Shown here in pieces: positions 13,101-27,387 of a DNA stretch of 46,214 nucleotides. Under the pieces are notes generated by a model. That model was given only the letters and a program-made list of their open reading frames with translations. It ran no database searches and was not told the origin of the DNA. Positions within the stretch are counted from its first letter, which is position 1, and every line of letters begins with the position of its first letter. The position numbers and the translations under genes were made by a program. Source of the stretch: a virus; IMG/VR virus record IMGVR_UViG_3300017744_005433, positions 1 through 46,214 of that record; one strand, written 5' to 3'.

Positions 13101-13129
13101 AGTATATCATCTTAACTCAATAATGTCAA
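13101..13129 (-). promoter_or_regulatory. Near-consensus sigma70 promoter, leftward
   Basis: On the minus strand TTGACA (13124-13129), a 17-base spacer, then TATACT (13101-13106). The ATG at 13094 begins six bases after the -10 box, so the expected start of transcription falls on or next to the start codon. This is the strongest promoter seen in the window and drives the dNMP kinase/sigma/ssb operon. Confidence 0.8.
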
Positions 13130-13231: not shown

Positions 13232-13260
13232 TTGACGAAAAATGATTTTACTGATATTAT
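13232..13260 (+). promoter_or_regulatory. Near-consensus sigma70 promoter, rightward
   Basis: TTGACG (13232-13237), a 17-base spacer, then TATTAT (13255-13260). The ATG of the winged-helix gene at 13268 is seven bases after the -10 box, again predicting a leaderless transcript. It would drive the regulator and the glycan gene island that follows without clear breaks. Confidence 0.75.
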
Positions 13261-13267
13261 TAAGCAC

Positions 13268-13576
13268 ATGAGAAAATTCATACAAACACCAATCGCTGTA
13301 CAACAAGATGTAATTGATGGAAAACTAATAGGTAACGATTTAGTTGTGTACAATTATTTATTATCTAAGGCTGGACACGGAGAGCCTATATTCTTCTCTA
13401 ACAATAGGATTGCTGAAGATTTAGGGGGGATGTCTTACGGAAAAATATCCGCAAGCATGAATAGGTTAGCTAAGCTCAGTCACATAAAAAGAAAAAAAAC
13501 ATCAAACAAGATGTTAACTCAATTGAAAACTTTAGTCATTAACGGGGATGTTAAGGTGAGAGGTAGGAAGGTTTGA
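13268..13576 (+). CDS. Winged-helix/HTH DNA-binding protein
   Basis: A 102-residue basic protein with a helix-turn-helix at about residues 44-66: SNNRIAEDLGGMSYGKISASMNRL, the usual 'IA..LG.S...VS..I..L' arrangement of winged-helix regulators and replication initiator N-domains. The C-terminal part is lysine/arginine-rich (HIKRKKTSNK, VKVRGRKV), fitting the wing and DNA contact. It probably regulates the divergent promoters next to it. I choose the ATG at 13268 rather than the in-frame TTG at 13232, because that TTG is part of the -35 box of the promoter and the ATG sits at the predicted transcription start. It ends overlapping the next gene by four bases (TTGA). Confidence 0.68.
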   Translation: MRKFIQTPIAVQQDVIDGKLIGNDLVVYNYLLSKAGHGEPIFFSNNRIAEDLGGMSYGKISASMNRLAKLSHIKRKKTSNKMLTQLKTLVINGDVKVRGRKV

Positions 13577-14523
13577 AGATATCAGTAAGAATGGAAGGTG
13601 GGTTGGGAGATCATCTCGCCGCCAATAGACTCATACCCGCAATAAAGAAATTCCACGGGAATTGCATTATTGATTTATTCTCGGACACAGAAGGTAATAG
13701 ATTGCAATCTGATATACTTAATAAAATGTGGCCCAGCCACTTTAACGAAACTAACGTCATAGAGTCGAAGAGGTTCAAGAAAATAACAATCAAGTCATCA
13801 AATTTTCCAGACGAATTATATCCAGGGCACATAGATAATATACCAACAGAGGTAAGAAAAAAAATGATTGAGGAGTATGATCTGTTTTACGATCTTCATA
13901 TAGACTCCCTTGAATGGCTGAATCATCCATACGACTGGTTAAAACATTTTAACTTTTTTCCTGAACCTGAATTAAAACTGTCTACCAATATTAATTTACC
14001 GGATAATTTCATAATGACGCACCTATACGCTAGAGATGGAGCGGACTCAAACATGGAAGAGTGGTACATATCTAAACTCCTAAAAAACATCTCTCAAGAA
14101 TTTGACGTTGTTGTATTAATTAACGAAGACTCTGAATCAATATACAAAAAAATAAAAAACGAAAGACTTGAGAGAATCCACTTCGTAAAAGCCTCACTAG
14201 AAGACATATTCTACATATCAAGCAAGTGTATAGCTGCCTTTGGAATAGATTCGGGTATAAGATTTATTCCATACCATTATGGAAAACCTACATTTACATT
14301 TTCAAAATATTGCAAACAGTACGGAACTGTACAGTATTCTTATTTAATAAGGTGGCTATTTAATGAAAAATTTGTCTTTCCACTTCATTACGACGTAAAA
14401 AGCGCAAGTAAGATAATAAAAAATTCACTTAAAAACCCAGCTTACAAACTATACCCTTTCTTATTAGATGACATAGAGAGGCTTGTCGCCCAAAGGGATG
14501 TAACGGAAGTAATAAAGCAATGA
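13573..14523 (+). CDS. GT9-like glycosyltransferase (ADP-heptose transferase type)
   Basis: A 316-residue GT-B-type protein. The N-terminus has EGGLGDHLAANRLIPAIK (GGLGD at residues 9-13), the loop that starts GT9-like transferases, and the C-terminal half has the family's AFGIDSGIRFIPYHYGKPTF segment, comparable to 'ND[ST]G..H.A.A.G.P...'. It would transfer a sugar from a nucleotide donor in the cytoplasm. The start is TTG, overlapping the previous stop by four bases and preceded by AGGAAGG a few bases upstream; an ATG at 13591 is the alternative. It ends in an ATGA overlap with the next gene, beginning the glycan operon. Confidence 0.68.
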   Translation: MKISVRMEGGLGDHLAANRLIPAIKKFHGNCIIDLFSDTEGNRLQSDILNKMWPSHFNETNVIESKRFKKITIKSSNFPDELYPGHIDNIPTEVRKKMIEEYDLFYDLHIDSLEWLNHPYDWLKHFNFFPEPELKLSTNINLPDNFIMTHLYARDGADSNMEEWYISKLLKNISQEFDVVVLINEDSESIYKKIKNERLERIHFVKASLEDIFYISSKCIAAFGIDSGIRFIPYHYGKPTFTFSKYCKQYGTVQYSYLIRWLFNEKFVFPLHYDVKSASKIIKNSLKNPAYKLYPFLLDDIERLVAQRDVTEVIKQ

Positions 14524-15308
14524 AAGCAGCCTTACTTTTTAGCGGTAAACTTGGAGACTGGAAAGAGTGTTTTGAATCTATTTCTAAAAACATCATTAAG
14601 CCTTTCAACCCAGACATTTTCTTAACAACTTGGGAGGGTGAGGATGTGGACGATTTTAGTAGAACGTTCAGTCCGTCCGCCCTAAGGCTTCTAAACTTTG
14701 AGGATTGCATAAAGCTATTAAAGGTAGATAAACTCACCCGCAAACCAAGTGAAGGTTTAATACCTATGTTAGCAGGAATAAAAGGCGTCCACTCTTTATA
14801 CAGGGAGTACGAACAAGAAAAATCCACGAGTTACGATTTAGTGATAAGGTTGCGCCCTGATATTCAAATTTTAGAGTCCGTAAATCAACAAGAAATTGAA
14901 GACTGTATTAAATCAAAATGCATCAGGACTCCACTTTTCGAGAGTGATAATATATATAACCACGAAGAGGAAATGAAAAAAGAATTTTCTTTTAGTTTTG
15001 TTTACGATAAAGCTTCACTACCTAATCAAATTAATGATCAATTTGCTATAGGCCATCCAAATGAAATGGATAAATATATGAACTGCATATCGAAGGTGAA
15101 TGAAGCTATTGATAAATTATGGAACGAAGGTTATCCGGAATACATGATAAAAGTTCCAGAGTCGGTAATGACCATATGCCTACAACTACAAGGCTGTAAA
15201 TACAAACAGCTAACTGGAACTAACTCATTCAATAACATAAAAACAATCCTCTGCAAAAATGGAAAAAAGTGGAGAAATAGGGGTCATCAATCTACAATAG
15301 CTGAATGA
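14520..15308 (+). CDS. Putative glycan-biosynthesis protein (glycosyltransferase-like)
   Basis: A 262-residue protein. The start KAALLFSGKLGDWKECFESI followed by PDIFLTTWEGE, and the mid-segment YDLVIRLRPDI, form a pattern I have seen in proteins of surface polysaccharide loci, where an N-terminal strand-turn-helix is followed by 'D.F.HTW' and 'R.RPD'. I cannot assign a named family. A FAIGHPNEMDKYMNCI segment follows near residue 180. There is no signal peptide. ATGA overlaps at both ends couple it to a GT9-like and a GT4-like gene, which supports a role in glycan assembly. Transfer of a sugar is inferred from context and fold hints only. Confidence 0.5.
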   Translation: MKAALLFSGKLGDWKECFESISKNIIKPFNPDIFLTTWEGEDVDDFSRTFSPSALRLLNFEDCIKLLKVDKLTRKPSEGLIPMLAGIKGVHSLYREYEQEKSTSYDLVIRLRPDIQILESVNQQEIEDCIKSKCIRTPLFESDNIYNHEEEMKKEFSFSFVYDKASLPNQINDQFAIGHPNEMDKYMNCISKVNEAIDKLWNEGYPEYMIKVPESVMTICLQLQGCKYKQLTGTNSFNNIKTILCKNGKKWRNRGHQSTIAE

Positions 15309-16261
15309 AAATATTCTTCCCAGACATACATATAACTCTAACTAAGAACTTAAGCCTAAGCTTAGAGAAGCTTGGGCATCAATTGATATTACCCTCTAAA
15401 GATTACATCATATCAGAACTCCCACCACAGGGTTGGGCATGGAATAAATCACACACTAGCGAATCAACGGAAAAATACGGATTTGCAAAAAACACAATTT
15501 ATGCAAGCAAAGATGAAATTTTCGACATAAAACCAGAGGTTATCTTCGTGAGTGCATTCGAAAACCAATTTGAAGTTATAAACATATTATGGCCGGAGGC
15601 GAAAAAGTGGGGTGCTAAATTAGCGTTCTATAGCGGTAATGACTATTGGGATACAGCCTACCCTTGGGACATTATAGAGAACTACATGCCTGCAGATCAG
15701 CTAGCGGCAAAGCTTTGTGAAAAGAACAAGAAACATTATTTCCACTACAGACCTTGGATCGACTACGAGATGTTCTCTTACGAAGGTCCTAGCGATTCAG
15801 ATATCATAGGTACTTACATATGTGATTATAAAAATAATTTCCCAGAAGATTTTGAGTGTTACAACAAAATAAAAAAATCAACTACAGCAAACTATCTCCT
15901 ATGCGAAGATAAGACAAAAGCAGAAACGTCCGATATAATGAATAAAAGTTGCGCAACCTTACATATCAAAAGATTAGAGGGTTATGGCTTCGCAGTTATA
16001 GAAAGTATGGCAAAAGGTAGACCTGTCTTCTTCTGGGAACCTTTAACAGAAGGAAAAAGTTACCTGCAATGGCTTAAGCTAGGAGTAACTGCTTTTACCT
16101 TCAGAGACCTAGGGGATTACATCTCTCAATTAAACTTTTTACTATCAAACAAAGATTTCAGAAATGAAGTTCAATTTAATTGCTCTAGAGAAATAAGGAA
16201 AATAATAAACAACGAAGAACAAAACCTTAAATTAAATAATTTTTTAAATAATTTATTATAA
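15305..16261 (+). CDS. Glycosyltransferase, GT-B fold, GT4-like C-terminal domain
   Basis: A 318-residue protein. The C-terminal signature LEGYGFAVIESMAKGRPVFFWEP is the GT4 donor-binding motif (E.FG...EAMA.G.PV) in slightly altered form. The N-terminus MKIFFPDIHITLTKNLSLSLEKLGH is the standard Rossmann start. A PEAKKWGAKLAFYSGNDYWDTAYPWD region separates the domains. No membrane segment is seen. It overlaps its neighbours by four and one bases. It belongs to the glycan operon; donor and acceptor are unknown. Confidence 0.72.
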   Translation: MKIFFPDIHITLTKNLSLSLEKLGHQLILPSKDYIISELPPQGWAWNKSHTSESTEKYGFAKNTIYASKDEIFDIKPEVIFVSAFENQFEVINILWPEAKKWGAKLAFYSGNDYWDTAYPWDIIENYMPADQLAAKLCEKNKKHYFHYRPWIDYEMFSYEGPSDSDIIGTYICDYKNNFPEDFECYNKIKKSTTANYLLCEDKTKAETSDIMNKSCATLHIKRLEGYGFAVIESMAKGRPVFFWEPLTEGKSYLQWLKLGVTAFTFRDLGDYISQLNFLLSNKDFRNEVQFNCSREIRKIINNEEQNLKLNNFLNNLL

Positions 16262-16956
16262 TGAAATTACTAATAGTATTACCTACCAGAAATAGATTCA
16301 GCAAATGTATAGAAGTTCTAAAGTCGTATATAAATTTATCAACACATAAAGAAACTAGATTTGTGATTAGTTGTGACAACGACGACACATCGATGAATCA
16401 AAAAACAGCCATTAACTTAATCCATTCCTTCCCGAATGTAAGCATTGTATTTAATGATAATAAAATAGTAAAAAACGAACTAATTAGTAATTTCACAACA
16501 AAGGTATGTGCAATAAATTCGGGAGCTAAAAATCAAGAATTTGATGTCTGTTTGCTTGCTAGCGATGACATGCACCCAGAGGTTGTTGGTTATGACTCCG
16601 TGATAATCGAAGATATGAAAAGATTTTACCCAGACACGGACGGAGTTCTTTGGTATAATGATGGCTACCAAGGTCAAAAACTAAACACATTATGTATACT
16701 AGGGAAGAAATACTATGACAGGTTTGGCTATATATATCACCCCTCATACATAACCCTTTATTGCGATAATGAATTCACTAAAGTTTCACAAAAATTAAAT
16801 AAATGTCAATATATAGATAAGACAATAATAAGGCATAAGCACTGGTCGCACAAAGACAATAACAACTCAAGAGACTCTCTTGATGAAAAAAACGACACAT
16901 TTGCATCTAGCGATGAGGCTAATTTTAGAGCTCGATTACAAAATGATTTTAAGTAA
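16261..16956 (+). CDS. Glycosyltransferase family 2-like protein
   Basis: A 231-residue GT-A protein. The N-terminal LIVLPTRNR at residues 3-11 is the GT2 first strand and loop, and CLLASDDMHPEV around residue 100 supplies the DxD-like metal site (SDDM). IINSGAK-type segment AINSGAKNQEFD precedes it as in other GT2 proteins. The protein is shorter than most GT2 enzymes and lacks a visible membrane segment. It starts one base into the stop of the previous gene (TAATG) and overlaps the sulfotransferase start by 14 bases. Confidence 0.7.
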   Translation: MKLLIVLPTRNRFSKCIEVLKSYINLSTHKETRFVISCDNDDTSMNQKTAINLIHSFPNVSIVFNDNKIVKNELISNFTTKVCAINSGAKNQEFDVCLLASDDMHPEVVGYDSVIIEDMKRFYPDTDGVLWYNDGYQGQKLNTLCILGKKYYDRFGYIYHPSYITLYCDNEFTKVSQKLNKCQYIDKTIIRHKHWSHKDNNNSRDSLDEKNDTFASSDEANFRARLQNDFK

Positions 16957-17485
16957 ACAAAAAATAATATTCATTCATGCTCCTAGAACCAGCGGAACAT
17001 CTATAGAGAATGAAATACTAGGAAATCAATTAGTTCCAGATAACCAGAAACATTTGAGAGCGAGTCAAATCAAACTCCACCTAAGAAATGAGTGGAGCGA
17101 TTACTTTAAGTTTACTATAGTCAGAAATCCATGGGATAGAGTTATATCTTTTTACCATCAAATATTTCATGAAGCTTATGGAATAAGAACCGGAAAAAGC
17201 TTATTGTTTTTTCTCCAACATTACAAACCTGCCCCATGGGAACATGGGTTGCAATGCTCTGATTACGCCGATGAAGATATGGACTTAGTTATAAAGTTTG
17301 AAGACAGAGAGAAGGGCTTAAAATCGCTGGAGGATATTACAGGCATTAAGGTTGATCCTAATAAAAAATCAAGATCAAGAAATAGGGGTAAAAAAAATTA
17401 TAGAGACTACTACGACGAGACAACAAAAGATATAGTGGAGAGATCTTTTTCAAGAGATATAGATTTATATGGATACCAATTCTAG
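16943..17485 (+). CDS. Carbohydrate sulfotransferase-like protein
   Basis: A 180-residue protein of the Sulfotransfer_2-like type. The 5'-phosphosulfate (PAPS) loop is seen at residues about 9-21 as IFIHAPRTSGTSI, and the 3'-phosphate site at 57-70 as FTIVRNPWDRVISF; both are the two defining motifs. It would move sulfate from PAPS to a sugar hydroxyl. It is somewhat shorter than cellular enzymes (often 200-300 residues). The start at 16943 is preferred because MILSKQKIIFIH is the family's normal N-terminus, while the longer reading from 16880 only re-reads the previous gene in another frame. It overlaps both neighbours (14 and 17 bases). The PAPS would have to come from the host. Confidence 0.82.
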   Translation: MILSKQKIIFIHAPRTSGTSIENEILGNQLVPDNQKHLRASQIKLHLRNEWSDYFKFTIVRNPWDRVISFYHQIFHEAYGIRTGKSLLFFLQHYKPAPWEHGLQCSDYADEDMDLVIKFEDREKGLKSLEDITGIKVDPNKKSRSRNRGKKNYRDYYDETTKDIVERSFSRDIDLYGYQF

Positions 17486-18359
17486 AATAAAAGTATCGGT
17501 CATTAATGGAAACGAAGATACCTTGCGCGATCCAATATTGGGAAGACCATTTTCCCATAACCTAGACCGCATAGATTATACAGAAAAACATAACGAAGCG
17601 GATGCCATACTACTATATCTAGATTATCTAGAGTGTGACAGGGATTTCAGCAGGCTATCAAGTACAGATGTATATAAAAAGTACGGGGATAAGTGTTTTT
17701 GTTTAGCTATGCATGATAATCCAAGCTTTGCTTACAGGGATAGCATTTGCACTAAATTTATATGTCAACCATTAATGGGGTCTGCAGAAAATTCCTCTCG
17801 AAAGATAATACCAATACCCTTAACCATGAGGCACTTTGAATACGAAATGATCAAAGACTTGCTTTTCATAAAAGAATGCAGGTCATCCAGAAAAATAAAC
17901 AACTTTTGCTTTACAGGTCAAACGGGGTATGCGAATAGAGATAAAATATTCAACTACAATCTTCCAAAATTCGACAGGGAAAAAACAAAACCTATCTGGC
18001 ATATAAAAAACAAAGAAGAGAGAATAAAATTAAATAAAAATTTCTGCAAAAGACTATCTTTATCTAAATTCTCTTTCTGCCCTAGGGGCGCAGGAAGTAG
18101 CTCGTTTAGGCTTTACCAATCTATGATGTCAGGGACAGTACCGATTATCTCAGGGATGGAAGATTTCCCATTTCAGGATGAGGTTAGTTGGGACTCTATG
18201 TGTATCAGAAGAGTTGTGGACCCGATGGATCTTCTATCTATTGATGAAAACGACTACAAAGCAATAAGGAGCAACGCGATAAATTTCTGGGACCAATATG
18301 TAAATATAGAAAATTGCGATAAAATATTATTCCAAAAATACATATACAATAGAAAATAG
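17469..18359 (+). CDS. Exostosin-like glycosyltransferase (GT47-like)
   Basis: A 296-residue protein. The block LSKFSFCPRGAGSSSFRLYQSM followed by GTVPIIS and DFPFQDEVSWDSM is the core of the exostosin family C-terminal domain (S.F.LCPRG....S.R..E....G..PVI....  .PF...W). The N-terminal half, with ADAILLYLDYLE and a segment FCFTGQTGYANRDK, is compatible with the first half of the GT-B fold. Family members transfer GlcA, Gal or Xyl; the sugar here is not known. It overlaps the sulfotransferase gene by 17 bases, and a 23-base gap follows. Confidence 0.75.
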   Translation: MDTNSRIKVSVINGNEDTLRDPILGRPFSHNLDRIDYTEKHNEADAILLYLDYLECDRDFSRLSSTDVYKKYGDKCFCLAMHDNPSFAYRDSICTKFICQPLMGSAENSSRKIIPIPLTMRHFEYEMIKDLLFIKECRSSRKINNFCFTGQTGYANRDKIFNYNLPKFDREKTKPIWHIKNKEERIKLNKNFCKRLSLSKFSFCPRGAGSSSFRLYQSMMSGTVPIISGMEDFPFQDEVSWDSMCIRRVVDPMDLLSIDENDYKAIRSNAINFWDQYVNIENCDKILFQKYIYNRK

Positions 18360-18382
18360 TATAAAATAAAATACTATCAATA

Positions 18383-19048
18383 ATGAATAAATCATATGGA
18401 AGTCAAGATTTGCAAAGAAATTGGTACGATGTAAGTAAGTATTTATCAAGCAAGAAATGGGAAGAGAATAAAGTTTTAACAAAGCTCAGGCCCTCAATGG
18501 AAGCGCTTAAAGGCAAAAAAGATCTTATTGGAGTTGAGTCAGGAATAGGTAGTTGCCTAAATTCTCAAAATATATATAAAAACCTAGATATAAAAAAACT
18601 ATATTTAATAGACGTAAATGACCCACCTAGAGAGCCAGGGACTTCTTTGTTAAAAAAAGACAATGTGGTATTCTTGAAAGGGAATTCGATCGACAAACTC
18701 AAGGAGATAGAAGAACCTCTTGACTTTGTGTATCTAGATTCCAGCCACGAGTTCAATCACTTATTAAACGAGATAAGAGTAATCTACCCAAAACTAAAAA
18801 AAGGAGGAATAATAGGCGGACACGACTACGAACACATTGGAGTAGTTTCGGCGGTAAACACTTTAATGTTTAATATATGGAGGAATATAGGAAAAAAACC
18901 GGATACCTTCTTTTTTGAATCTTGCCTCGACGAGCATCCAGGAATACCGGAAGAATATTCAAAATTCGGCTTCCCCGTAGATTGGTGGCACATAAAAAAC
19001 GAAGAACTCTCAGAGGAGTTTGTGATCCACGAACTAAGAAATGGCTAA
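18383..19048 (+). CDS. SAM-dependent methyltransferase (class I, Methyltransf_24-like)
   Basis: A 221-residue methyltransferase. LIGVESGIGSC at about 53-63 is the SAM-binding loop after strand 1, KKLYLIDVND the acidic end of strand 2, and LDFVYLDSSHEFNHLLNEI with KKGGIIGGHDY the strands 4-5 region typical of the Methyltransf_24 type found in glycan and cephalosporin hydroxylase-like clusters. It most likely O-methylates a sugar of the glycan made by this island. TACTAT lies five bases before the ATG, but no convincing -35 box is seen and I do not call a promoter. It ends three bases before the next gene. Confidence 0.75.
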   Translation: MNKSYGSQDLQRNWYDVSKYLSSKKWEENKVLTKLRPSMEALKGKKDLIGVESGIGSCLNSQNIYKNLDIKKLYLIDVNDPPREPGTSLLKKDNVVFLKGNSIDKLKEIEEPLDFVYLDSSHEFNHLLNEIRVIYPKLKKGGIIGGHDYEHIGVVSAVNTLMFNIWRNIGKKPDTFFFESCLDEHPGIPEEYSKFGFPVDWWHIKNEELSEEFVIHELRNG

Positions 19049-19051
19049 CTA

Positions 19052-19864
19052 ATGAAAATAAAGATTTTTGTAGTTACATACTTAGGGGAGAAAAGGTTAC
19101 CGATAACACTACCTTCGATATTTAATAGCGACATAAATAATTTCGAACATGAAGTTATATTGATAAATAATCACACAAAACTAATTATACCCGAAGAGTT
19201 TAAAGATAAAGTGTCAATTATAAATAATAACCTAAGACCGGACTGGTCGACTGGGCACTTAGCAAGAAACTGGAATCAGGCAATAATTAACGGGTTCAAA
19301 TCGCTAACTAAACCGGACTGCGATATAGTTGTATGCAGTCAGGATGACTCTGAATTCAAACAGGATTGGGCCTCCAAATGCGTTAAGCTTCACGAAAGAT
19401 ACTCTTTTATACAAAACGGCCACGGAGACCAGTTCCACTCGTACACTCCGGAAGCCGTAATTAAAACAGGATTGTGGGACGAAAGGTTTTGCGGTTTATT
19501 TAGGCAAGCTGCGGATTATTTTTGGAGATGCGTGATGCACAATAAAGAAAATTCCTCCATACAAGATACAGCCCATCATAGAGTTTTAAATCCTATACTT
19601 AAAAACAGAAATGAAGATTCAAGGGGTTATTTAGTAGATCCCGATGTCAGGAAAATAGATAAAATACAATGGAAAGAGTCGGATTCAATTAACGACTCTA
19701 TCTCCTCAAAATTAATATTTGAGAAGTACGGGTTCGATCCCTACCCATGGACTGAGGAAAAAATAAATAAAGCTAGAGAAAAAACCTTGTCAAAAAACTA
19801 CATAACATACCCCTACTTTGAGAAGGATATAGAAAATCTTCTTGAAAAAAATTACTTACTTTAA
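19052..19864 (+). CDS. Putative GT-A (GT2-like) glycosyltransferase
   Basis: A 270-residue protein. KIFVVTYLGEKRLPITLPSIF matches the N-terminal strand and helix of GT2 enzymes; VILINNHTK is strand 2; CDIVVCSQDDSEFKQDWAS supplies an acidic DD motif near residue 95; and GLFRQAADYFWRC resembles the later ED-type catalytic segment. No membrane segment is seen. It ends one base before the HAD-nucleotidyltransferase gene. Sugar specificity is unknown. Confidence 0.65.
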   Translation: MKIKIFVVTYLGEKRLPITLPSIFNSDINNFEHEVILINNHTKLIIPEEFKDKVSIINNNLRPDWSTGHLARNWNQAIINGFKSLTKPDCDIVVCSQDDSEFKQDWASKCVKLHERYSFIQNGHGDQFHSYTPEAVIKTGLWDERFCGLFRQAADYFWRCVMHNKENSSIQDTAHHRVLNPILKNRNEDSRGYLVDPDVRKIDKIQWKESDSINDSISSKLIFEKYGFDPYPWTEEKINKAREKTLSKNYITYPYFEKDIENLLEKNYLL

Positions 19865-21286
19865 ATGATAAAGGCAGTATTGTTTGACCTAGATGGAGTT
19901 TTAGTGGACTCGAGGGAACTTCATTATCATTGCCTGAATGAAGCCTTAAAATCTATAGACGAAAAATACACCATAGACAGAGAGGAGCACTTATCTACAT
20001 ATGACGGACTACCAACAACAAAGAAGCTGAACAAACTTACGGAGAAGAAGGGCTTACCAAAAGATTACCATGACAAAGTTTGGAAGAAGAAGCAAGAAGC
20101 GACAGTCAACTTTATCAACAATAGAGTCTCTCCAGATAAAAAAATAACAAACCTCTTGAAATCACTAAAAGAGCAAGGTTTCAAAATGTGCGTTTGTTCT
20201 AATTCCATACGAGAAACCACAAAAATGATACTCCTAAGGAAGGGCCTAATTGAGTATATAGAATTTTATGTAACCAACGAAGATGTCAAGCACCCAAAGC
20301 CTAATCCAGAAATGTACCTAAAGGCAATGATAAATCTAGGCTTATCTCCAAAGGAATGTGTTATAGTGGAAGATTCCCACATCGGAAGGAAAGCTGCTAT
20401 TCTATCCGGAGCTTATTTATGTGGAGTCATGAACATGAATGACGTCGAATTATCCAAAATACAATATACAATAGATAAAGCAAATGCAAATTCAAAAATT
20501 AACCCAAAATGGCAAGGAGGCAAAATGAACGTATTAATACCTATGGCTGGTGCTGGATCTCGTTTTCAAAAAGCGGGGTTCACCTTCCCAAAACCCCTAA
20601 TAGAAGTAAGGGGAAAACCTATGATCCAAACGGTTGTGGAAAATATAAATGTAGACGCAAAGCATATTTTTATAGTTCAAGAAGATCACTATCACAAATA
20701 TAGCTTGAAGGAAACTTTAGAAATGATTTCGCCCAACTGTGAAATTGTGACGGTTAATGGAGTAACAGAAGGTGCAGCTTGCACAACCCTATTAGCCAAA
20801 AGTCTTATCGACAACAATGAGCCGCTACTAATTGCAAACTCAGATCAGTTCGTAGAATGGGATAGTAATGAATTTATGTACTCGATGGTGGGGGACAATA
20901 TTGACGGAGGTATATTAACCTTTTACTCAACTCACCCAAAATGGAGTTACGCAAAGCTAGACGAAAACGGTTTCGTCTCAGAGGTTCAAGAGAAAAAGCC
21001 AATCAGTGATAAAGCTACAGTAGGAATTTATTACTGGACAAAAGGTTCGGATTACGTAAAATATGCAGAGCAGATGATAAAGGGCAACGCAAGGGTTAAT
21101 AATGAATTTTACGTTTGCCCAGTCTACAACGAAGCTATTAATGATAATAAAAAAATAAAAATTTTCGATATTCCGAAAATGTGGGGACTAGGAACCCCGG
21201 AAGACCTAAAGTACTTCTTAGAGAATCAAGGTAAAGAAGAATCTGACCCTGACTTATGGGTTAACGCCCCAAACCCTAACGAATAA
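19865..21286 (+). CDS. Fusion of HAD phosphatase and sugar nucleotidyltransferase
   Basis: A 473-residue protein with two complete domains. Residues 1-about 205 are a HAD hydrolase of the phosphoglycolate-phosphatase type: FDLDGVLVDS with nucleophile Asp8 and Asp10, VCSNS for motif II, and VIVEDSHIGRKAA for motif IV. Residues 221-473 are an NTP-transferase domain: MAGAGSRF at 227-234, PKPL with Lys243, and NSDQ with Asp327 as metal ligand. It would dephosphorylate one sugar phosphate and activate another as a nucleotide sugar. Codon 221 is an ATG preceded by a perfect AAGGAGG, so a free 253-residue nucleotidyltransferase may also be made. The gene lies between a glycosyltransferase and a cupin. 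NTP and sugar are unknown. Confidence 0.85.
   Translation: MIKAVLFDLDGVLVDSRELHYHCLNEALKSIDEKYTIDREEHLSTYDGLPTTKKLNKLTEKKGLPKDYHDKVWKKKQEATVNFINNRVSPDKKITNLLKSLKEQGFKMCVCSNSIRETTKMILLRKGLIEYIEFYVTNEDVKHPKPNPEMYLKAMINLGLSPKECVIVEDSHIGRKAAILSGAYLCGVMNMNDVELSKIQYTIDKANANSKINPKWQGGKMNVLIPMAGAGSRFQKAGFTFPKPLIEVRGKPMIQTVVENINVDAKHIFIVQEDHYHKYSLKETLEMISPNCEIVTVNGVTEGAACTTLLAKSLIDNNEPLLIANSDQFVEWDSNEFMYSMVGDNIDGGILTFYSTHPKWSYAKLDENGFVSEVQEKKPISDKATVGIYYWTKGSDYVKYAEQMIKGNARVNNEFYVCPVYNEAINDNKKIKIFDIPKMWGLGTPEDLKYFLENQGKEESDPDLWVNAPNPNE
20514..20520 (+). promoter_or_regulatory. Internal Shine-Dalgarno AAGGAGG before an in-frame ATG
   Basis: AAGGAGG at 20514-20520, four bases before ATG 20525-20527, which is codon 221 of the HAD-nucleotidyltransferase gene and the exact first residue of the nucleotidyltransferase domain. 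Few real gene starts in this island have so good a ribosome site, which makes internal initiation likely. It may also be a trace of two formerly separate genes. Confidence 0.6.
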
Positions 21287-21291
21287 AAACC

Positions 21292-21633
21292 TTGAGAAAA
21301 TACAAATTAAACGATTTTAAAGGGGGCTGGGTAGCAGGAAACTTTGAACCCACCATATTCAAAACTAATGAATTTGAAGTTTCCGTAAAAAGCTATAAAA
21401 AAGGAGAATACCAAGACAGACATATCCACAAAGAAGCAGAAGAGGTGTCAATAATAATACAAGGCTCAGCAAAAATGAACGGTAAGATTTACAAGAAAAA
21501 TGATATTATTCTAATAGAAAAAAATGAAGCTACAGATTTTATGCCCTTAGAAGATAACACTACAACCTGCGTAATAAAAACGCCCTCAGTTATTGGGGAT
21601 AAATATTTTACGGATGATACTGATCTCCCATAG
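21292..21633 (+). CDS. Small cupin-domain protein
   Basis: A 113-residue single cupin. The metal-binding pattern is DRHIHKEAEE (His44, His46, Glu50/51) followed by IIIQGSAKMNGKIYKKNDIILIEKNE, the standard G-rich second half of cupin motif 1. Small cupins in sugar loci often act as isomerases or epimerases of nucleotide sugars, or as binding partners. It starts with TTG five bases after the previous stop; no other in-frame start is near. It overlaps the phosphodiesterase-like gene by 20 bases. The reaction is not known. Confidence 0.65.
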   Translation: MRKYKLNDFKGGWVAGNFEPTIFKTNEFEVSVKSYKKGEYQDRHIHKEAEEVSIIIQGSAKMNGKIYKKNDIILIEKNEATDFMPLEDNTTTCVIKTPSVIGDKYFTDDTDLP

Positions 21634-22036
21634 AGGCAACACAAAAGGGCCCGATAAAAAAAGAGAAAACTCAATAAACTACATACAAGAAGCCTTAGAC
21701 TCAGGTTTTGATGTTGAAATTGATGTTTGGGCTAAAGAACAGTTATGGCTCGGTCACGATAAGGCTGAAAATCCGTGCCCAATGAAGTTTTTGATCCAAA
21801 ACTTTAGGCACCTATGGATCCACTGTAAAAACCTAGAAGCTATGGATTTACTGAGCGAATTTAAGGTTTTGAATTATTTTTGGCACGAGTCAGACGACTT
21901 CACCTTAACCTCTAAGAATTTCATATGGACCTATCCAGGAAAAAGGGTTAGTAATAAAAGCGTTCTAGTTGTGGGTGATGCAAGAAACTATGGGGGCCCA
22001 CCATGTTTTGGGTTGTGTTCTGATTACTTAAAATGA
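21614..22036 (+). CDS. Short glycerophosphodiester phosphodiesterase (GDPD)-like protein
   Basis: A 140-residue protein carrying the N-terminal catalytic elements of the GDPD TIM-barrel family: ISHRG (His6, Arg7), ENS (Glu18, Asn19), VEIDVW (Glu35, Asp37) and LGHD (His48, Asp49). Full GDPD enzymes have about 250 residues, so this is a short form; related short proteins occur in surface polysaccharide loci. It could act on a phosphodiester-linked substituent of the glycan. The ATG at 21614 is chosen because MILISHRG is the family start; a longer reading from 21593 would lie further inside the cupin gene. It overlaps the WavE-like gene by four bases (ATGA). Confidence 0.65.
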   Translation: MILISHRGNTKGPDKKRENSINYIQEALDSGFDVEIDVWAKEQLWLGHDKAENPCPMKFLIQNFRHLWIHCKNLEAMDLLSEFKVLNYFWHESDDFTLTSKNFIWTYPGKRVSNKSVLVVGDARNYGGPPCFGLCSDYLK

Positions 22037-22917
22037 ACCGCTGGAACCCTCATCAATTAAAAGGTGAATCAGGGCAGGAACTTGAGTACGTATCTAGTTT
22101 TACTAACTTTGCACTATCCCTGCAAAAAAAAATACTAAAAAGATTCGAAAAATTAGAAAACTCTATATCGATAATCATACAGGGCCCGTTAAACAATAGA
22201 TCAATTAATACAATAGATAGTTATTTAAAATATGGAGAAGTAATAGTTAGTTGTTGGGACAAGGATGATATTAGTAAGCTAGATAAATATAAAGATAAAA
22301 TAAAAATAGTAGTAAACAAATATTCAGAAGTCCCGGTTTCCCATAAGAAACCTGGGAGTCAGGCTCCATGGATATATCAGCACTACACAACCCTAAATGG
22401 GCTAAAGGAAGCGGGGGGTTACTTTTGCATAAAACTAAGGTCTGATGAAAGTTTTCCATTCTTAGATCCAATAATAGAAAACCTTAAATACAATTCTCAT
22501 AAAAATAAAGACCATGAAACCCAAAAATATCGGTGGTTTAAAATAATAACTTCTAATATTTATTTTAGGTTTTCGAGGGAAAATAAATTTCACCCATCGG
22601 ACCATATTATTGCTGGCGAAAAAACCCGAATGATCGAAATTTTCAACAAAGCTGTATACTTATGTTGCCTAAAAAACATATGTAGATTCCCTGAGCAGTT
22701 GTTGTGTAAAGCAATAATCGAAACCTTTTGGGATCCGATTAAAAAAAAATATGACAAAATGGAAGACAGCGAATGTGACGAATTGATGAAAAAACATTTT
22801 GATATCATAAGGATAAAACATTTACCCAATCATATATGGACCTCTAGCTACAGAAGATACAGCGATCTATATTCAGAAGAGGATTGGTGTCACCATATAC
22901 AAAAAATTAATAGTTGA
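22033..22917 (+). CDS. WavE-like glycosyltransferase/LPS synthesis protein
   Basis: A 294-residue protein like the WavE lipopolysaccharide core proteins. ISIIIQGPLNNRSI at about 45-58, VIVSCWDKDD near 70, YQHYTTLNGLKEAGGYFCIKLRSDE at about 115-139 and the later KFHPSDHI segment follow the family order. Such proteins are thought to transfer sugars onto LPS core or capsule. No signal peptide. It is the last glycan gene before a short gap with a candidate promoter and the single-strand DNA-binding protein gene. Confidence 0.7.
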   Translation: MNRWNPHQLKGESGQELEYVSSFTNFALSLQKKILKRFEKLENSISIIIQGPLNNRSINTIDSYLKYGEVIVSCWDKDDISKLDKYKDKIKIVVNKYSEVPVSHKKPGSQAPWIYQHYTTLNGLKEAGGYFCIKLRSDESFPFLDPIIENLKYNSHKNKDHETQKYRWFKIITSNIYFRFSRENKFHPSDHIIAGEKTRMIEIFNKAVYLCCLKNICRFPEQLLCKAIIETFWDPIKKKYDKMEDSECDELMKKHFDIIRIKHLPNHIWTSSYRRYSDLYSEEDWCHHIQKINS

Positions 22918-22959
22918 GAAAAATTCATTTTAGCATAGTATTATTTATAAAATTACTAT
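22914..22959 (+). promoter_or_regulatory. Candidate promoter before the whirly-like gene
   Basis: Two overlapping readings exist in the 48-base gap and the end of the previous gene: TTGAGA (22914) - 16 bases - TAGTAT (22936-22941), or TTAGCA (22930-22935) - 18 bases - TACTAT (22954-22959). The second places the -10 box six bases before the ATG at 22966, as in the two strong divergent promoters. No Shine-Dalgarno sequence precedes the ATG. Confidence 0.4.
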
Positions 22960-22965
22960 TCTACT

Positions 22966-23526
22966 ATGAGCATATCACTTTATAAACCAAACAGCAAGAA
23001 CGCAGGTTGTGCATTCAACTTTAAAATCGGAGTTAATAGAAACAAGGAACCTGTCGTTTACGTTAGCGCTATACAACAATACAGTTGGGACGACAAAAAG
23101 AAATCTGGTAATTTTTCCGGAAACAAGGACGACCCAGATAAGAATATAAATTTAAAATTTAGCGAATTCGAAATAGGCGGGATAATAAGTTCTTTCAGAA
23201 AAAGATATGAATATTCTGCATTTCACAGCTACGAAGATAATAAAACATCAATTAAATTCGTGCCCTGGGATAAACAATCTAAAACGCAAAATGGAACAAT
23301 TACTCTTCCAGCTTTCGGGATAACTTTTACTAGAAACGGAAATCAGTCATTCAGAATCCCACTTGAACCCGGAGAAGTAGAAAATCTAGATCAGTTTTTA
23401 AAATTTTACCTTAAAGAGTTGTACTCGCACAGGCGTAGAGAAGAGATCAAAAACATACAGAAATACAAAAAAGATCAACAAGAAGAAACTAATAATGTAA
23501 AAGGCACTGATGAAGCTCCTTTTTAA
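22966..23526 (+). CDS. Putative single-stranded nucleic-acid-binding protein (whirly/PC4-like)
   Basis: A 186-residue protein. The pattern of NLKFSEFEIGGIISSFR, a His/Ser-containing loop, TSIKFVPWD, and a second strand set FGITFTRNGNQSFRIPLEPGEVENLDQFL resembles whirly-type single-strand-binding proteins of phages, where a beta-sheet is followed by 'I.L...E...L...L'. The C-terminus is charged and ends GTDEAPF, similar to the acidic aromatic-ending tip of SSB proteins. These points suggest a second single-strand-binding protein. It stands alone between sugar genes, with its own candidate promoter. Family assignment is tentative. Confidence 0.5.
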   Translation: MSISLYKPNSKNAGCAFNFKIGVNRNKEPVVYVSAIQQYSWDDKKKSGNFSGNKDDPDKNINLKFSEFEIGGIISSFRKRYEYSAFHSYEDNKTSIKFVPWDKQSKTQNGTITLPAFGITFTRNGNQSFRIPLEPGEVENLDQFLKFYLKELYSHRRREEIKNIQKYKKDQQEETNNVKGTDEAPF

Positions 23527-25434
23527 ATGAAAAAAAAGAAAGTATTAATTCACAGTAACCACTGCAAGGCTTTCACCGGCTTTGGCAAGCATACGAAAAA
23601 CATACTTCTTCATTTAGAAAAAACCGGAAAATATGATTTGATCGAGTTTTCTAATGGTGTCAAATGGGGAGACCCTATGCTTTCCACATTACCGTGGAAA
23701 TGCCAAGGGTCATTACCGAACAACCCTTCCTTGTTAAGCAAATTAAACCAAGATCCCAACCTAGCAAGAAGTGCGGGTTACGGGGGGCAAACTATTGACA
23801 AATTCATAGAAGAAGAAAAGCCTGATGTTTATATAGGTATTGAAGACATATGGGCATTCTCCGGATACACAGATAAAAAGTGGTGGAACAAAATTAACTC
23901 CATGGTATGGACGACGCTGGATAGTTTACCTATTTTACCGGAAGCTGAAAAATTAGCGCCGAAAATAAAAAACTATTATTCTTGGGCGTCATTTGCGTCT
24001 AAAGAATTAAATAGGTTGGGGCACACTCACGTAAAAACTCTACATGGAGCCTTGGATACATCTAAGTTTTTTAAATTAAAAGATGAAGAAAAATTAAAGA
24101 TACGAAAAGAGCAAAACATTGACAAAGGAGATTTTGTAATAGGTTTTGTATTCAGGAATCAGCTAAGAAAAAGCGTACCAAATTTACTAGAAGGATTTAA
24201 AATCTTTTGTGATCAAAATCCAACGTCGAAGGCTAAACTGCTACTGCACACACACTGGAAAGAGGGGTGGGATATCCCCAGGTTAATAAAAGAAAAAGGT
24301 ATAGACTCAGAAAAAATACTAACTACCTATTATTGTAAAAATTGTAAAAAATACGAAATAAAACCTTACAAAGAAGAAGGTTTAGATTGTAGGTTTTGCG
24401 GGGCAGAGAAATCTCAAGTCACAACAAACACAAAGGCTGGTGTTTCCGAAGAGCAATTGAATGAGATATATAACATAATGAGCGTTTATTGCCACCCATT
24501 TACTAGCGGAGGTCAAGAAATACCAATTCAAGAAGCTAAATTAGCAGAGCTTATCACCTTAGTTACTAATTATAGCTGCGGAGAAGATTGTTGTACCGAC
24601 GATAGCGGAAGCTTACCGCTGAGCTGGACAGAGTATAGAGAGCCTGGAACGCAATTCATAAAAGCTAGCACAAATCCCCAAAGCATAGCTAGTCAATTAA
24701 AAAAAGTTCTAAATATGAAAGCTTCCAAGTTAATAGATATCGGAAAAAAATCAAGAGAGTTTGTTGTAAATAATTATAGCGTAGAAGTTGTTGGGAAAAA
24801 ATTAGAATCTATTATAGATGCGATGCCAGAAGTAAAGTGGGACTTTAATTTCGACATAGAAGAAAAGGACGAAGATTACATTCCCCCTCATATAGAAGAT
24901 AATTCAGAGTGGATAATTGATTTGTATAAGAATATATTAAAAATAGAAGTTGACGAGAAAGATGACGGCCACAAGCATTGGATGAAACGCCTATCAGAGG
25001 ACATGCCCAGGAGTGATATATTAAAATATTTCAAACAAGTTGCTGCGCAAGATAACCAAAAAAATAAAAAGATTGACTTTATAGAATTACTAGATAAAGA
25101 CGATGAAGGAAAAAGGTTATTAATATCAATGCCGCAAAGCATTGGAGACATCTATCTATGCACATCATTATTAAAAAATATAAAAGACACTTACCCTGAT
25201 TACAATATATATTTTGCAACAAAGCCGGAGTACTTCGATATCCTAGATGGCAACCCATATATTCACAAAGTAATTCCTTACGATAAAGGGTTAGATAACT
25301 TACCGTCAATGGAGGGAAAAGGGAACCACAAAGGTTTTTTTGAAGTTGCATTCTTGCCGTTTATAGGGACTCAAAGAATGTTAAATTATATGCACAACGG
25401 AAAAGATAAAATACAATTCGACTTATGCACTTGA
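23527..25434 (+). CDS. Large glycosyltransferase: GT4 with zinc-ribbon insert, DUF4214-like segment, N-terminal half of a GT9 domain
   Basis: A 635-residue protein. Residues 1-about 440 form a GT4-like GT-B enzyme (VLIHSNHCKAFTGFGKHTK; VIGFVFRNQLRKSVPNLLEGF; HPFTSGGQEIPIQEAKLAE). An insert at about 268-295 has CKNC and CRFC (Cys270, 273, 288, 291), a zinc ribbon inside the donor domain. Residues about 461-510 (WIIDLYKNILKIEVDEKDDGHKHWMKRL) resemble DUF4214. From residue 530, RLLISMPQSIGDIYLCTSLLK starts a GT9 domain, which stops at residue 635; its second half continues in the next gene in the -1 frame. Either the gene is split by a frameshift or the halves work as two chains. It begins directly at the previous stop. 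Confidence 0.75.
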   Translation: MKKKKVLIHSNHCKAFTGFGKHTKNILLHLEKTGKYDLIEFSNGVKWGDPMLSTLPWKCQGSLPNNPSLLSKLNQDPNLARSAGYGGQTIDKFIEEEKPDVYIGIEDIWAFSGYTDKKWWNKINSMVWTTLDSLPILPEAEKLAPKIKNYYSWASFASKELNRLGHTHVKTLHGALDTSKFFKLKDEEKLKIRKEQNIDKGDFVIGFVFRNQLRKSVPNLLEGFKIFCDQNPTSKAKLLLHTHWKEGWDIPRLIKEKGIDSEKILTTYYCKNCKKYEIKPYKEEGLDCRFCGAEKSQVTTNTKAGVSEEQLNEIYNIMSVYCHPFTSGGQEIPIQEAKLAELITLVTNYSCGEDCCTDDSGSLPLSWTEYREPGTQFIKASTNPQSIASQLKKVLNMKASKLIDIGKKSREFVVNNYSVEVVGKKLESIIDAMPEVKWDFNFDIEEKDEDYIPPHIEDNSEWIIDLYKNILKIEVDEKDDGHKHWMKRLSEDMPRSDILKYFKQVAAQDNQKNKKIDFIELLDKDDEGKRLLISMPQSIGDIYLCTSLLKNIKDTYPDYNIYFATKPEYFDILDGNPYIHKVIPYDKGLDNLPSMEGKGNHKGFFEVAFLPFIGTQRMLNYMHNGKDKIQFDLCT

Positions 25435-26612
25435 TAGAACAATACGCTTTATCGTGTGGGGTAAAAATAGACAAACCTCATATAGAGACATGCTTTTACC
25501 CAATAGCTGAAAAAAAATACATAACTCTTCATGCGAGTAGTGGAATGCAATCAAAAAATTACGACTACTATGATGACGTGATGGAAATGATCTCTCCATA
25601 TTTAAATGAACAAGGTATCAAAGTTATACAAATAGGAGGTAAAGAAGATCGAGCAATAAAAGGCTGCGAACATTTACACGGAAGAACAAACATAAAACAG
25701 TCGGCGTATATTATATCGAAATCTCTATTGCATTTTGGCAACGATTCCTTTAGCACCCATGTTGCTTCGGGATTCAATAAAAAAATAGTATGTTTATATA
25801 GCGTTTTATTCAAAGAGTGTTGTGGGCCATACTGGGGGGATAAAGAAAAACAAATACTCCTAGAGTCCCACAGAAATGGCTTAAAACCTTCTTTTTCTGA
25901 TAGCGAGCAGGTAAAAATGATAAACTTAATAAAGCCGGAGGAGATAGCGGAATCGGTTTTAAATTTACTAAAGATAGATAACTACATCTCAGATATAGAA
26001 ACGCTGCACATGGGAAATCAATATCATATACCCGCTCTATCAGTGGTCCCAAACCATATTATGCCCGAGAGCTTCGCAAAAGGTCAGCCAGTTAATATTT
26101 GGGGTCACGAATGTTTCGACGAACAGAATATAGCTAAATGGGCCTACGAAAGAAAATGTAATATATTCCTAGATCAACCAATGGGAATTAGGTATCTGAA
26201 CGTTATACGCAAGAACATAAATAGAATAAACTATTTTGTATCAAACGATAGCGAAGAAAGCTACTTCAAATCCTTAGAAAAAGGAGGGGTTAAATTTAAT
26301 CTATTATGTAAAGACGAAAACATAATTAATGACTTAAGATTAAAATTTTTTGATTGGCCGATTACTTTATTAAAAGAAAAAACAAAAAAAGATCTTGACA
26401 ATTCTGAAAAACTATGCGATAATACTTGTTATAAAAATTCAATGAAAATCATATCAGGAGCGCAAATATACAACAGCAAGGCAGCTTGGAAAAATGAACT
26501 CGAAGGGGATCACGACCAAGTTATAGACTGTCCTGAATTCTGGGAAGAAATTGATACACTAAAAATTTATAACGATAAAAACCATGGTAAAAACAAAGAC
26601 ATCATCAAATAA
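25425..26612 (+). CDS. C-terminal half of GT9-type glycosyltransferase plus unknown domain
   Basis: A 395-residue protein. Residues 1-about 190 are the second half of a GT9 fold: HLIEQYALSCGV, YITLHASSGMQSKNYDYY, VIQIGGKEDRAIKGCEHLHG, then LLHFGNDSFSTHVASGFNKKIVCLY, the GT9 donor-site motif (G.D....H.A...). The missing N-terminal half is at the end of the preceding gene. Residues about 200-395 (from HIPALSVVPNHIMPES) are a domain I do not recognise, with LDQPMGIRYLNV and a Cys pair LCDNTCYK near residue 330. The ATG lies ten bases before the end of the previous gene, so reinitiation is possible. It overlaps the next gene by 29 bases. Confidence 0.65.
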   Translation: MHLIEQYALSCGVKIDKPHIETCFYPIAEKKYITLHASSGMQSKNYDYYDDVMEMISPYLNEQGIKVIQIGGKEDRAIKGCEHLHGRTNIKQSAYIISKSLLHFGNDSFSTHVASGFNKKIVCLYSVLFKECCGPYWGDKEKQILLESHRNGLKPSFSDSEQVKMINLIKPEEIAESVLNLLKIDNYISDIETLHMGNQYHIPALSVVPNHIMPESFAKGQPVNIWGHECFDEQNIAKWAYERKCNIFLDQPMGIRYLNVIRKNINRINYFVSNDSEESYFKSLEKGGVKFNLLCKDENIINDLRLKFFDWPITLLKEKTKKDLDNSEKLCDNTCYKNSMKIISGAQIYNSKAAWKNELEGDHDQVIDCPEFWEEIDTLKIYNDKNHGKNKDIIK

Positions 26613-27387
26613 CTCAGAAGATTCACAGTCAAGTGACTTGATTTATATGAAAAATTACAAAGAAGGTCCGGGCAAATTTATTAGAAATGAATTCGGATTA
26701 CTTGATAATGTAGATTACGAATTCTCAGAAGATGGTTCTGTAAATTGGAGAGCTATGATTAAAGATGAAAACCTTTTCCCAAACAAATCTTGGTTTAGCT
26801 TACGAAAAAAAGATTTACCCAGATCTATAATAGGTCTAAAAGATTATCAATTACTGATAAAGCTTAGCGGAATCAAGGAACTTGCAAAGCTAAGGGGATT
26901 TACAGATGTTTATTATGATGTAGAAAAATGTGAAGAAGGACATGTTGCAGTAAAATGCAGTATAACATTTTCTCCAAATTACGAAACAGGAAACCTGCCA
27001 GTTGTATTCTCCGACATGGCAAATGCCACACTAAACAATACAAGCAGTTTTGCCACTAAATTTCTAGAAACTATAGCTTGCAACAGAGCGTTTGTTAGGT
27101 GTGTGAGAAATTTCTTAAACGTGCATATCGTAGGTGATGACGAAATAGACAAATCTAACCAAACAGCGTCGAGCAATTCTTCTGCGGGTTCACTCACCCC
27201 TTCTTCAATGATAGAATCTTTAGCTGGAGATAAATTGAATTGTTCCAGTTTTGAAGAGTTCAAAGTTATACTTAGGGATTGGTGGAAGACTGGAAAATAT
27301 AAAAACGATTCAGTTAAGGACTGGAACGATTACTCAGATATTCCCCCGACAGAGTCAAGAGTGTTAATGAAGGTTATGAATTCTTAG
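26584..27387 (+). CDS. Conserved phage protein, possible ssDNA-annealing/recombination role
   Basis: A 267-residue protein. The core (about residues 95-190) has KLSGIKELAKLRGFTDVYYDV, EEGHVAVKCSITFSPNYET, then NTSSFATKFLETIACNRAFVRCVRNFLNV. The order 'beta-sheet, T[SN]SF, helix with A..RA..R..R.F' recalls phage Rad52/Erf-like annealing proteins, but the match is weak. Residues 191-215 are a Ser-rich linker, and the last 50 residues (SFEEFKVILRDWWKTG) form a small helical domain. It is the last plus-strand gene and its end overlaps the convergent fibre gene by 14 bases. An alternative is an uncharacterised conserved phage protein with another role. Confidence 0.45.
   Translation: MVKTKTSSNNSEDSQSSDLIYMKNYKEGPGKFIRNEFGLLDNVDYEFSEDGSVNWRAMIKDENLFPNKSWFSLRKKDLPRSIIGLKDYQLLIKLSGIKELAKLRGFTDVYYDVEKCEEGHVAVKCSITFSPNYETGNLPVVFSDMANATLNNTSSFATKFLETIACNRAFVRCVRNFLNVHIVGDDEIDKSNQTASSNSSAGSLTPSSMIESLAGDKLNCSSFEEFKVILRDWWKTGKYKNDSVKDWNDYSDIPPTESRVLMKVMNS

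Follow-up and report, generated by a model that had tools for sequence, protein, structure and literature searches.

A layered, exchangeable glycan-biosynthesis locus in an uncultivated lineage of large tailed phages

Gene content of the locus

The stretch analysed here, IMG/VR virus record IMGVR_UViG_3300017744_005433 (46,214 bases; hereafter the window), is a complete record and is viral throughout. Its carrier is an uncultivated large tailed phage of marine type, known from environmental DNA alone. On the plus strand, a single 17-gene unit (g14-g30, 13232-27387) lies with minus-strand genes on either side. About nine of its genes encode glycosyltransferases (GT). The others include genes for a sulfotransferase, a methyltransferase, a fusion of HAD and nucleotidyltransferase domains, a protein resembling cupins and a small one resembling GDPD, together with an HTH/DnaD-like gene (g14) and a conserved gene of no matched family (g30). 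Five further GT genes on the minus strand (g01-g04 and g09) bring the transferase genes to about fourteen overall. Several transferase families and donor-activation enzymes are clustered here in a phage genome, as in a phage glycan-biosynthesis island. The genes of the plus-strand cassette are as follows.

g14, 13232-13576, plus: HTH_36/DnaD-like, first gene of the unit and left cassette edge (Pfam HTH_36 E 6e-4, below cut-off)
g15, 13573-14523, plus: conserved protein, putative GT-B glycosyltransferase (EGGLGD motif)
g16, 14520-15308, plus: GT-A-fold glycosyltransferase of no named family, minimal-cassette member (AlphaFold2 model, mean predicted local distance difference test (pLDDT) 89.6)
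g17, 15305-16261, plus: GT4-like, exchangeable interior gene (EGYGFAVIESMAKG motif alone)
g18, 16261-16956, plus: GT2-type glycosyltransferase (PHROG glycosyltransferase E 6e-19; Pfam Glyco_tranf_2_3 below cut-off)
g19, 16880-17485, plus: sulfotransferase (Pfam Sulfotransfer_2 E 5e-10; PHROG galactose-3-O-sulfotransferase E 3e-13)
g20, 17469-18359, plus: exostosin/GT47-type glycosyltransferase (Pfam Exostosin_GT47 E 2e-10)
g21, 18383-19048, plus: S-adenosylmethionine (SAM)-dependent methyltransferase (Pfam Methyltransf_24 E 6e-12)
g22, 19052-19864, plus: GT2-type glycosyltransferase (Pfam Glycos_transf_2 E 8e-4, slightly below cut-off)
g23, 19865-21286, plus: beta-PGM-like HAD fused to a sugar-1-phosphate nucleotidyltransferase, minimal-cassette member (Pfam HAD_2 and NTP_transferase, E 5e-34 and 4e-11)
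g24, 21292-21633, plus: small cupin-like protein (PHROG phrog_24762 E 1e-35, a family of unknown function)
g25, 21614-22036, plus: minimal 140-residue GDPD-fold phosphodiesterase-like protein, minimal-cassette member (AlphaFold2 model, pLDDT 97.6)
g26, 22033-22917, plus: WavE-type glycosyltransferase, right cassette end (Pfam WavE E 1e-10)

The original prediction, made from the letters of the window, had placed a glycan island with at least seven varied GT genes at 13573-26612. The island is real, and its sulfotransferase, methyltransferase, HAD-nucleotidyltransferase, cupin and GDPD-like genes were borne out by Pfam, PHROG and fold comparisons. Over Pfam cut-off were g19, g20, g21, g23, g26, g28 and g29; g15 was unmatched, and g18 and g22 fell below. 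The genes are also as tightly packed as had been described, with most gaps in 13573-26612 between -29 and +23 bases and a maximum of +48. The island is not uninterrupted: a non-sugar gene, g27 (22966-23526), breaks it, and the true unit runs from 13232 to 27387. All five predicted sugar-transfer genes on the minus strand were recovered, as a GT34, a GT32-type, two DUF2827 and a GT4-type gene (10203-11261). A join with a bacterial contig was ruled out, since several independent contigs (G002, G003 and G004, from other metagenomes) carry the same gene order and the whole record is viral.

Layers of the island in related phages

A search of IMG/VR with g30 gave 59 related loci, which with 28 longer contigs formed the comparison set. 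We found the island to be layered, with core enzymes, a minimal cassette and an exchangeable interior, and this is the main result. Among the 59 loci, g27 was present in 51, g28 in 56, g29 in 58 and g30 in all. These four genes persist in contig G020, which lacks the cassette so that g27 comes immediately after g14, and in a distant clade with a rearranged neighbourhood. The core transferase genes of the lineage are g09, g28 and g29. The cassette sits between g14 and g27. In one clade (G012-G015 and G017-G019) it consists of g16, g23, g25 and g26 alone; the remaining main-clade contigs, except G020, have g15 as well, and between g16 and g23 they hold three to seven further, variable genes. It is this interior, with its transferases, sulfotransferase and methyltransferases, that varies. 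A tree of the core proteins showed the shrinkage of the cassette to be one clade event.

Exchange of the cassette interior and the tail-side block

The locus is hypervariable between related phages. Contigs G006, G007 and G008, from three metagenomes, are 99.5-99.8% identical in g28-g30; G006 and G008 have 1 of 9 interior families in common, and G007 and G008 have 2 of 10. At the DNA level, identity between G006 and G008 is 96.8% up to where gene c23 ends, and 98.2-99.6% over a stretch that begins with g23 and takes in most of the tail genes. The 2.5 kb in between could not be aligned, and the breakpoints lie at gene ends. Likewise, G009 and G010 share no interior family (0/8) at 97.0% core identity. 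Distant pairs can carry the same interior: between G008 and G021 the core proteins are about 79% and the tail tip protein J 37% identical, but the interior genes and g23 are 90-96% identical. The corresponding values for G007 and G009 are 93-96% in the interior and about 78-80% in the core proteins. The recurrence of cassette types in separate assemblies argues against chimeric contigs.

A second variable region, the tail-side block, lies on the minus strand beside a fibre-type gene.

g01-g04, 392-4827, minus: exchangeable tail-side block of GT34, GT32-type and two DUF2827 genes (Pfam, PHROG)
g01, 392-1168, minus: GT34 (Pfam)
g02, 1165-2670, minus: GT32-type sugar transferase (Pfam; N-half PHROG 24091)
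g03-g04, 2654-4827, minus: two DUF2827 genes (Pfam)
g05, 4858-7443, minus: fibre-type virion protein beside the tail-side block, candidate acceptor (PHROG tail family E 2e-44)

The whole cassette is common to G002 and G003, which differ in the tail-side block; G006 and G008 have the block in common and differ in the cassette. In this block the window shares 89-94% identity with G008 and with G010, at about 65-75% identity of the core proteins. Thus, both the cassette interior and the tail-side block are swapped as units between phages, and we regard this as the strongest result. The block accompanied the long cassette in 8 of 8 long-cassette contigs and in 0 of 5 other main-clade contigs with the region; this co-occurrence reflects one clade event and was not counted as independent evidence.

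Multidomain enzymes occur in the block of relatives, such as GT2-GT47-GT34 (G005) and GT47-GT8-GT34 (G018), and G005 also has a GT25 with a pyruvyl transferase. A literature search on DUF2827 yielded nothing relevant. The fibre-type protein g05 contains 23.5% Ser+Thr, the highest value among the 39 genes of the window, and 11.6% Asn. The transferases g01-g04, which follow g05, are encoded beside virion genes and, with almost no membrane segments, appear soluble.

A second large sugar island was seen in G003 (L162-L163) at about 78-96 kb, between a GT25-like gene and an opposite-strand gene. It carries five Sulfotransfer_2 genes over Pfam cut-off and a sixth recognised by similarity to g19, three methyltransferases, a pyruvyl transferase, and Fringe-, GT32- and Caps_synth-type transferases. 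The corresponding position is variable in G010 and G020.

Core genes and a divided GT9 enzyme

The core genes are listed below.

g27, 22966-23526, plus: core protein, right cassette flank (acidic C-terminus, DEAPF, like that of single-stranded DNA-binding protein (SSB))
g28, 23527-25434, plus: core GT with a GT4 domain, a zinc-ribbon-like insert and the N-half of a GT9 (Pfam Glycos_transf_1 E 1e-6)
g29, 25425-26612, plus: core C-half of a GT9 plus an unassigned C-terminal domain (Pfam GT9 E 5e-9)
g30, 26584-27387, plus: lineage-specific core protein, final gene of the plus-strand unit (none over Pfam cut-off)
g09, 10203-11261, minus: core GT4-type glycosyltransferase, flanked by g08 and the SSB gene (PHROG glycosyltransferase E 2e-17)

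The two halves of a GT9 enzyme, marked by an SIGD motif in the N-half and a GNDS...H motif in the C-half, are divided between g28 and g29. In g28, the GT4 domain bears a four-cysteine, zinc-ribbon-like insert (C270, C273, C288 and C291, invariant in 27 aligned sequences). The N-half of the GT9 lies behind this domain and was assigned by its SIGD motif and position only. The product of g29 covers positions 103-229 of the 247 in the Pfam GT9 profile and matches the C-half of the NCBIfam heptosyltransferase II. Among the relatives listed, the position of the g28/g29 overlap is always the same; its length is 10 bases in almost every case and 4 to 14 bases in the rest. We considered a programmed frameshift joining them and saw no slippery heptamer at the overlap; two polypeptides with coupled translation are preferred. 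Alg13/Alg14 and comparable bacterial pairs are precedents for a GT-B enzyme in separate halves, and we know of none in GT9.

Neither Pfam nor PHROG gave a match for g27; for g30, PHROG was likewise empty and Pfam gave nothing above cut-off. Both are likely DNA-binding or recombination proteins. The core transferase g09 matched PDB 5i45 (E 3e-5) and was found in distant clades too.

Cassette enzymes and the g23-g25 pair

At the left edge, g14 matched the PHROG DnaD-like helicase loader (E 2e-4) and stands constantly left of the cassette in relatives. Its neighbour g15 had been called GT9-like by motif only; searches of Pfam and NCBIfam gave no profile match and thus no support for this family. 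It has 11 relatives at 63-71% identity and is restricted to those with the long cassette. The model of g16, a protein without a Pfam family, was matched by Foldseek to GT31/GT6 enzymes (E 6e-7, probability 1.0). Gene g17 is present in 5 relatives examined. In g19 we found the motif HAPRTSGTS, which resembles a loop binding 3'-phosphoadenosine-5'-phosphosulfate (PAPS), and RNPWDRVISFY.

The fusion protein g23 matched PDB entries 4evw and 1lvh. Its HAD residues D8, D10, H20, K145, E169 and D170 are invariant in a 22-sequence alignment, and its nucleotidyltransferase domain retains the GAGSRF...FPKP loop; the HAD part would be of the mutase or phosphatase type. The cupin-like g24 had a weak match to Polysacc_synt_C of Pfam, a domain not of the flippase type. 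The g25 model aligned with the GDPD 1o1z (VIA-align Z 10.4), and the majority of the top rows were GDPDs. The catalytic set H6, E35, D37, H48 and K72 is invariant in 56 sequences. Accordingly, g25 has both the fold and the catalytic His/Glu/Asp/His/Lys of the GDPD family, although with 140 residues it is smaller than the enzymes of solved structure and no Pfam family matches it.

Outside the lineage, g25 often adjoins g23 in other phages. As a two-gene unit they are also conserved in many SAR11 genomes and in SAR86, Methylophilaceae, Prochlorococcus and Poseidoniales (L240-L284). Since g25 usually adjoins g23 in SAR11, SAR86 and other marine microbes, the pair is a biochemical unit that phages and these microbes have in common. 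It points to an uncharacterised sugar-activation unit widespread in ocean bacteria. A g23 homologue about 58% identical is also found in Synechococcus phages such as S-CAM9, within a small transferase cluster.

Searches for membrane, transport and DNA-modification genes

Searches for the flippase (Wzx), polymerase (Wzy) and initiating transferase (Bac_transf) found none in 18 lineage records, of which one is of ~183 kb and many are fragments; the positive controls worked. These records therefore show no surface polysaccharide locus of the Wzx/Wzy type, and the predicted lack of flippase and polymerase holds. By hydropathy, a membrane-like stretch was present in 1 of 203 cassette genes from 24 contigs, namely in a protease-like gene of family c194. 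This serine-protease-like gene (AAHV and GSSGGG motifs, signal-like N-terminus) lies between g26 and g27 in G009 and G023.

The lack of a transporter had been taken to favour a virion target. This argument is weaker than stated: in bacteria, WavE-, GT9- and GT25-type enzymes use lipid A-core as their substrate at the cytoplasmic face, and its export is carried out by host MsbA.

Thymidylate synthase-family hydroxymethylases were found in 0 of 34 lineage records (again one of ~183 kb and many fragments) with working controls, so that the route by which a DNA-glycosylating phage makes hydroxymethylated pyrimidines had no counterpart there. A search for TET/JBP oxygenases gave 0 of 18 records, and its control search was likewise empty.

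Proposed function and alternative explanations

The original prediction had offered virion glycosylation and remodelling of the host glycan as hypotheses, and both are sound. Taken as a whole, the data are best explained by a soluble, exchangeable glycan-assembly locus of an uncultivated tailed phage whose acceptor is its own virion, an explanation to which we give an even chance. The HAD domain of g23 would make a sugar-1-phosphate, and the nucleotidyltransferase domain would activate it to a nucleoside diphosphate (NDP)-sugar. Soluble transferases would build an oligosaccharide in the cytoplasm, and g19 and g21 would decorate it with the use of PAPS and SAM, presumably supplied by the host. 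In the least certain step, the phage virion would serve as acceptor; the foremost candidates are g05, the fibre rich in Ser, Thr and Asn, and its neighbours. A cassette swap would then alter the glycan coat of the virion, and this switch, similar to one of serotype, would not depend on the receptor-binding tail tip.

Chain assembly is probably cytoplasmic, given the near-absence of membrane segments and the lack of flippase, polymerase and initiating transferase in the 18 records. We ranked virion proteins first because the transferases adjoin g05, the most Ser/Thr-rich protein of the window, and because there are precedents, with soluble systems proven in chloroviruses and virion glycans known in mycobacteriophages. 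The chlorovirus capsid protein (Vp54 of PBCV-1) is glycosylated in the cytoplasm by mostly soluble, early-expressed viral enzymes, some of them multidomain, and glycan antigenic variants occur (PMC5408694; PMC7826918). Glycans on capsid and tail subunits of mycobacteriophage virions were reported by Freeman 2023, as cited in PMC12619734.

Several points weigh against a virion acceptor, which is itself inferred. The plus-strand unit holds DNA-metabolism-type genes and may be expressed early, which would also suit remodelling of the host surface. The classical substrate of WavE-, GT9- and GT25-type enzymes is lipid A-core, and the host is able to export it. Because g01-g04 and the long cassette were lost together in one clade event, their loss is no independent sign of cooperation. 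Moreover, the two blocks may have different acceptors because they assort independently.

Remodelling of the host surface glycan is a serious but less probable alternative. Cytoplasmic transferases would alter lipid A-core or another lipid-linked acceptor, which the host exports, so that superinfection is blocked or the life of the cell is prolonged; cassette swaps would change which rival phages are excluded. The derivation of the WavE, GT9 and GT25 families from lipopolysaccharide pathways, the conservation of the g23-g25 pair as a bacterial unit in SAR11, SAR86 and others, and the published reading of similar pelagimyophage and cyanophage islands (PMC7029224; PMC7824862) all agree with it. 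The missing flippase does not dismiss it, because lipopolysaccharide core enzymes act before host export. Nevertheless, the 18 records contained no flippase, polymerase or initiating transferase, and the cassette genes are almost without membrane segments, unlike those of Gtr or Wzy serotype-converting phages. Some transferases also lie in the tail region next to the fibre gene, and the core transferases are kept in G020, where the cassette is gone. Two further possibilities are improbable. Production of a free or secreted metabolite or an extracellular polysaccharide during a long infection would resemble what has been proposed for cyanophage multi-enzyme sets, namely secondary metabolites (PMC7824862), but the enzymes are mostly transferases and the records searched gave no flippase or polymerase. 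Glycosylation of phage DNA as protection from restriction, which we think very unlikely, would fit the placement of the core genes g09, g28 and g29 among SSB, deoxynucleoside monophosphate kinase and other DNA-type genes. The hydroxymethylase family was missing from all 34 records, however, and sulfation, methylation and rapid swapping of the transferase set ill suit a glycan on a DNA base.

With the virion as acceptor, cassette-exchanged glycan coats would add to phage diversity and host interaction a layer that surveys of tail-fibre sequences miss. With the host surface as acceptor, the same data would show how phages renew superinfection exclusion. Close relatives swap the cassette, so these viruses may alter their own or the host's sugar coat in the way that bacteria switch serotype. 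Phages almost identical to each other but unlike in the cassette interior provide a natural experiment, which makes the question directly testable under either reading. More tentatively, large uncultivated phages might coat their virions with a sulfated, methylated glycan, exchange cassettes at two loci and so possess a true viral serotype system with a split GT9, although we lean against this fuller version.

Comparison with known systems

Phage glycan islands are already a known kind, including in large marine phages. The view that few phages carry so complete a set is therefore partly true, as comparable islands have been described in cyanophages and pelagimyophages and read as host O-antigen modification (PMC7824862, PMC7029224). 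The host recognition cluster of pelagimyophages and the polysaccharide clusters of cyanophages are likewise hypervariable islands of transferases and sugar-activation genes, and in pelagimyophages the island stands together with tail fibre genes. Those islands belong to T4-like myophages and include epimerases and other genes for making sugars, whereas the tail module here is of the lambda type. The present locus further differs in that its lineage has no cultured relatives, that it includes a sulfotransferase and a split GT9 core, and that its transferases are spread over a unit with DNA-type genes and the tail-side block. The novelty lies in the lineage, in a layered design that includes a sulfotransferase, in the conserved split GT9, and in direct evidence for unit-wise cassette exchange between phages nearly identical in flanking DNA.

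Chloroviruses build their glycans in a similar way but are eukaryotic viruses, with no sequence relation shown and with a proven acceptor; the variants studied there carry a transferase mutation or deletion, whereas here a gene cassette is replaced. Bacterial O-antigen and capsule loci follow the same plan of conserved flanks and an exchangeable transferase interior moved by recombination. In contrast to these, the present locus is virus-borne and lacks flippase, polymerase and initiating transferase in the 18 records. Serotype-converting phages (gtrABC, oac, wzy) also carry genes that alter surface glycans; they act through integral membrane proteins, in contrast to the single membrane-like gene among 203 here. 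Mycobacteriophages with glycosylated virions, a precedent for the virion as acceptor, carry few transferases, compared with about fourteen transferase genes and decoration enzymes in the window.

The phage lineage and minor observations

Neither g28 nor g30 had a match in 50,697 cultured phage records, and a DNA search was also empty. TerL matches among cultured phages were about 24% identical. We treated the window as a siphovirus because its tail genes (protein J, L, minor tail, tape measure; PHROG) are lambda-type. Longer contigs of the lineage span 140-203 kb. One of them, G010 (184,324 bases), appears to be a nearly complete circular-type assembly of ~183 kb, since its final 1,000 bases are repeated exactly at 468-1467. 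Its proteins include, by inspection, a large terminase subunit, portal, DNA polymerase III alpha, DnaB, ribonucleotide reductase and Clp ATPase.

No match to g30 was found in 397 Flavobacteriaceae and 397 SAR11-order genomes. Lineage contigs were binned in a Flavobacteriaceae metagenome-assembled genome (L240) and a Lokiarchaeota one (L306, 57% identity to g30), and these are probably misbinned virus.

Directly upstream of g13, in the divergent g13/g14 gap, a promoter-like site lies on the minus strand at 13101-13129 (TTGACA-17-TATACT, extended -10, 11 of 12 consensus matches); such sites in the region are near chance (6 found, 4.2 expected). Finally, g07 (8329-9834) carries repeats such as ETHRLLSGISG, and its relatives are 251 to 587 residues long, with 827 in one distant relative.

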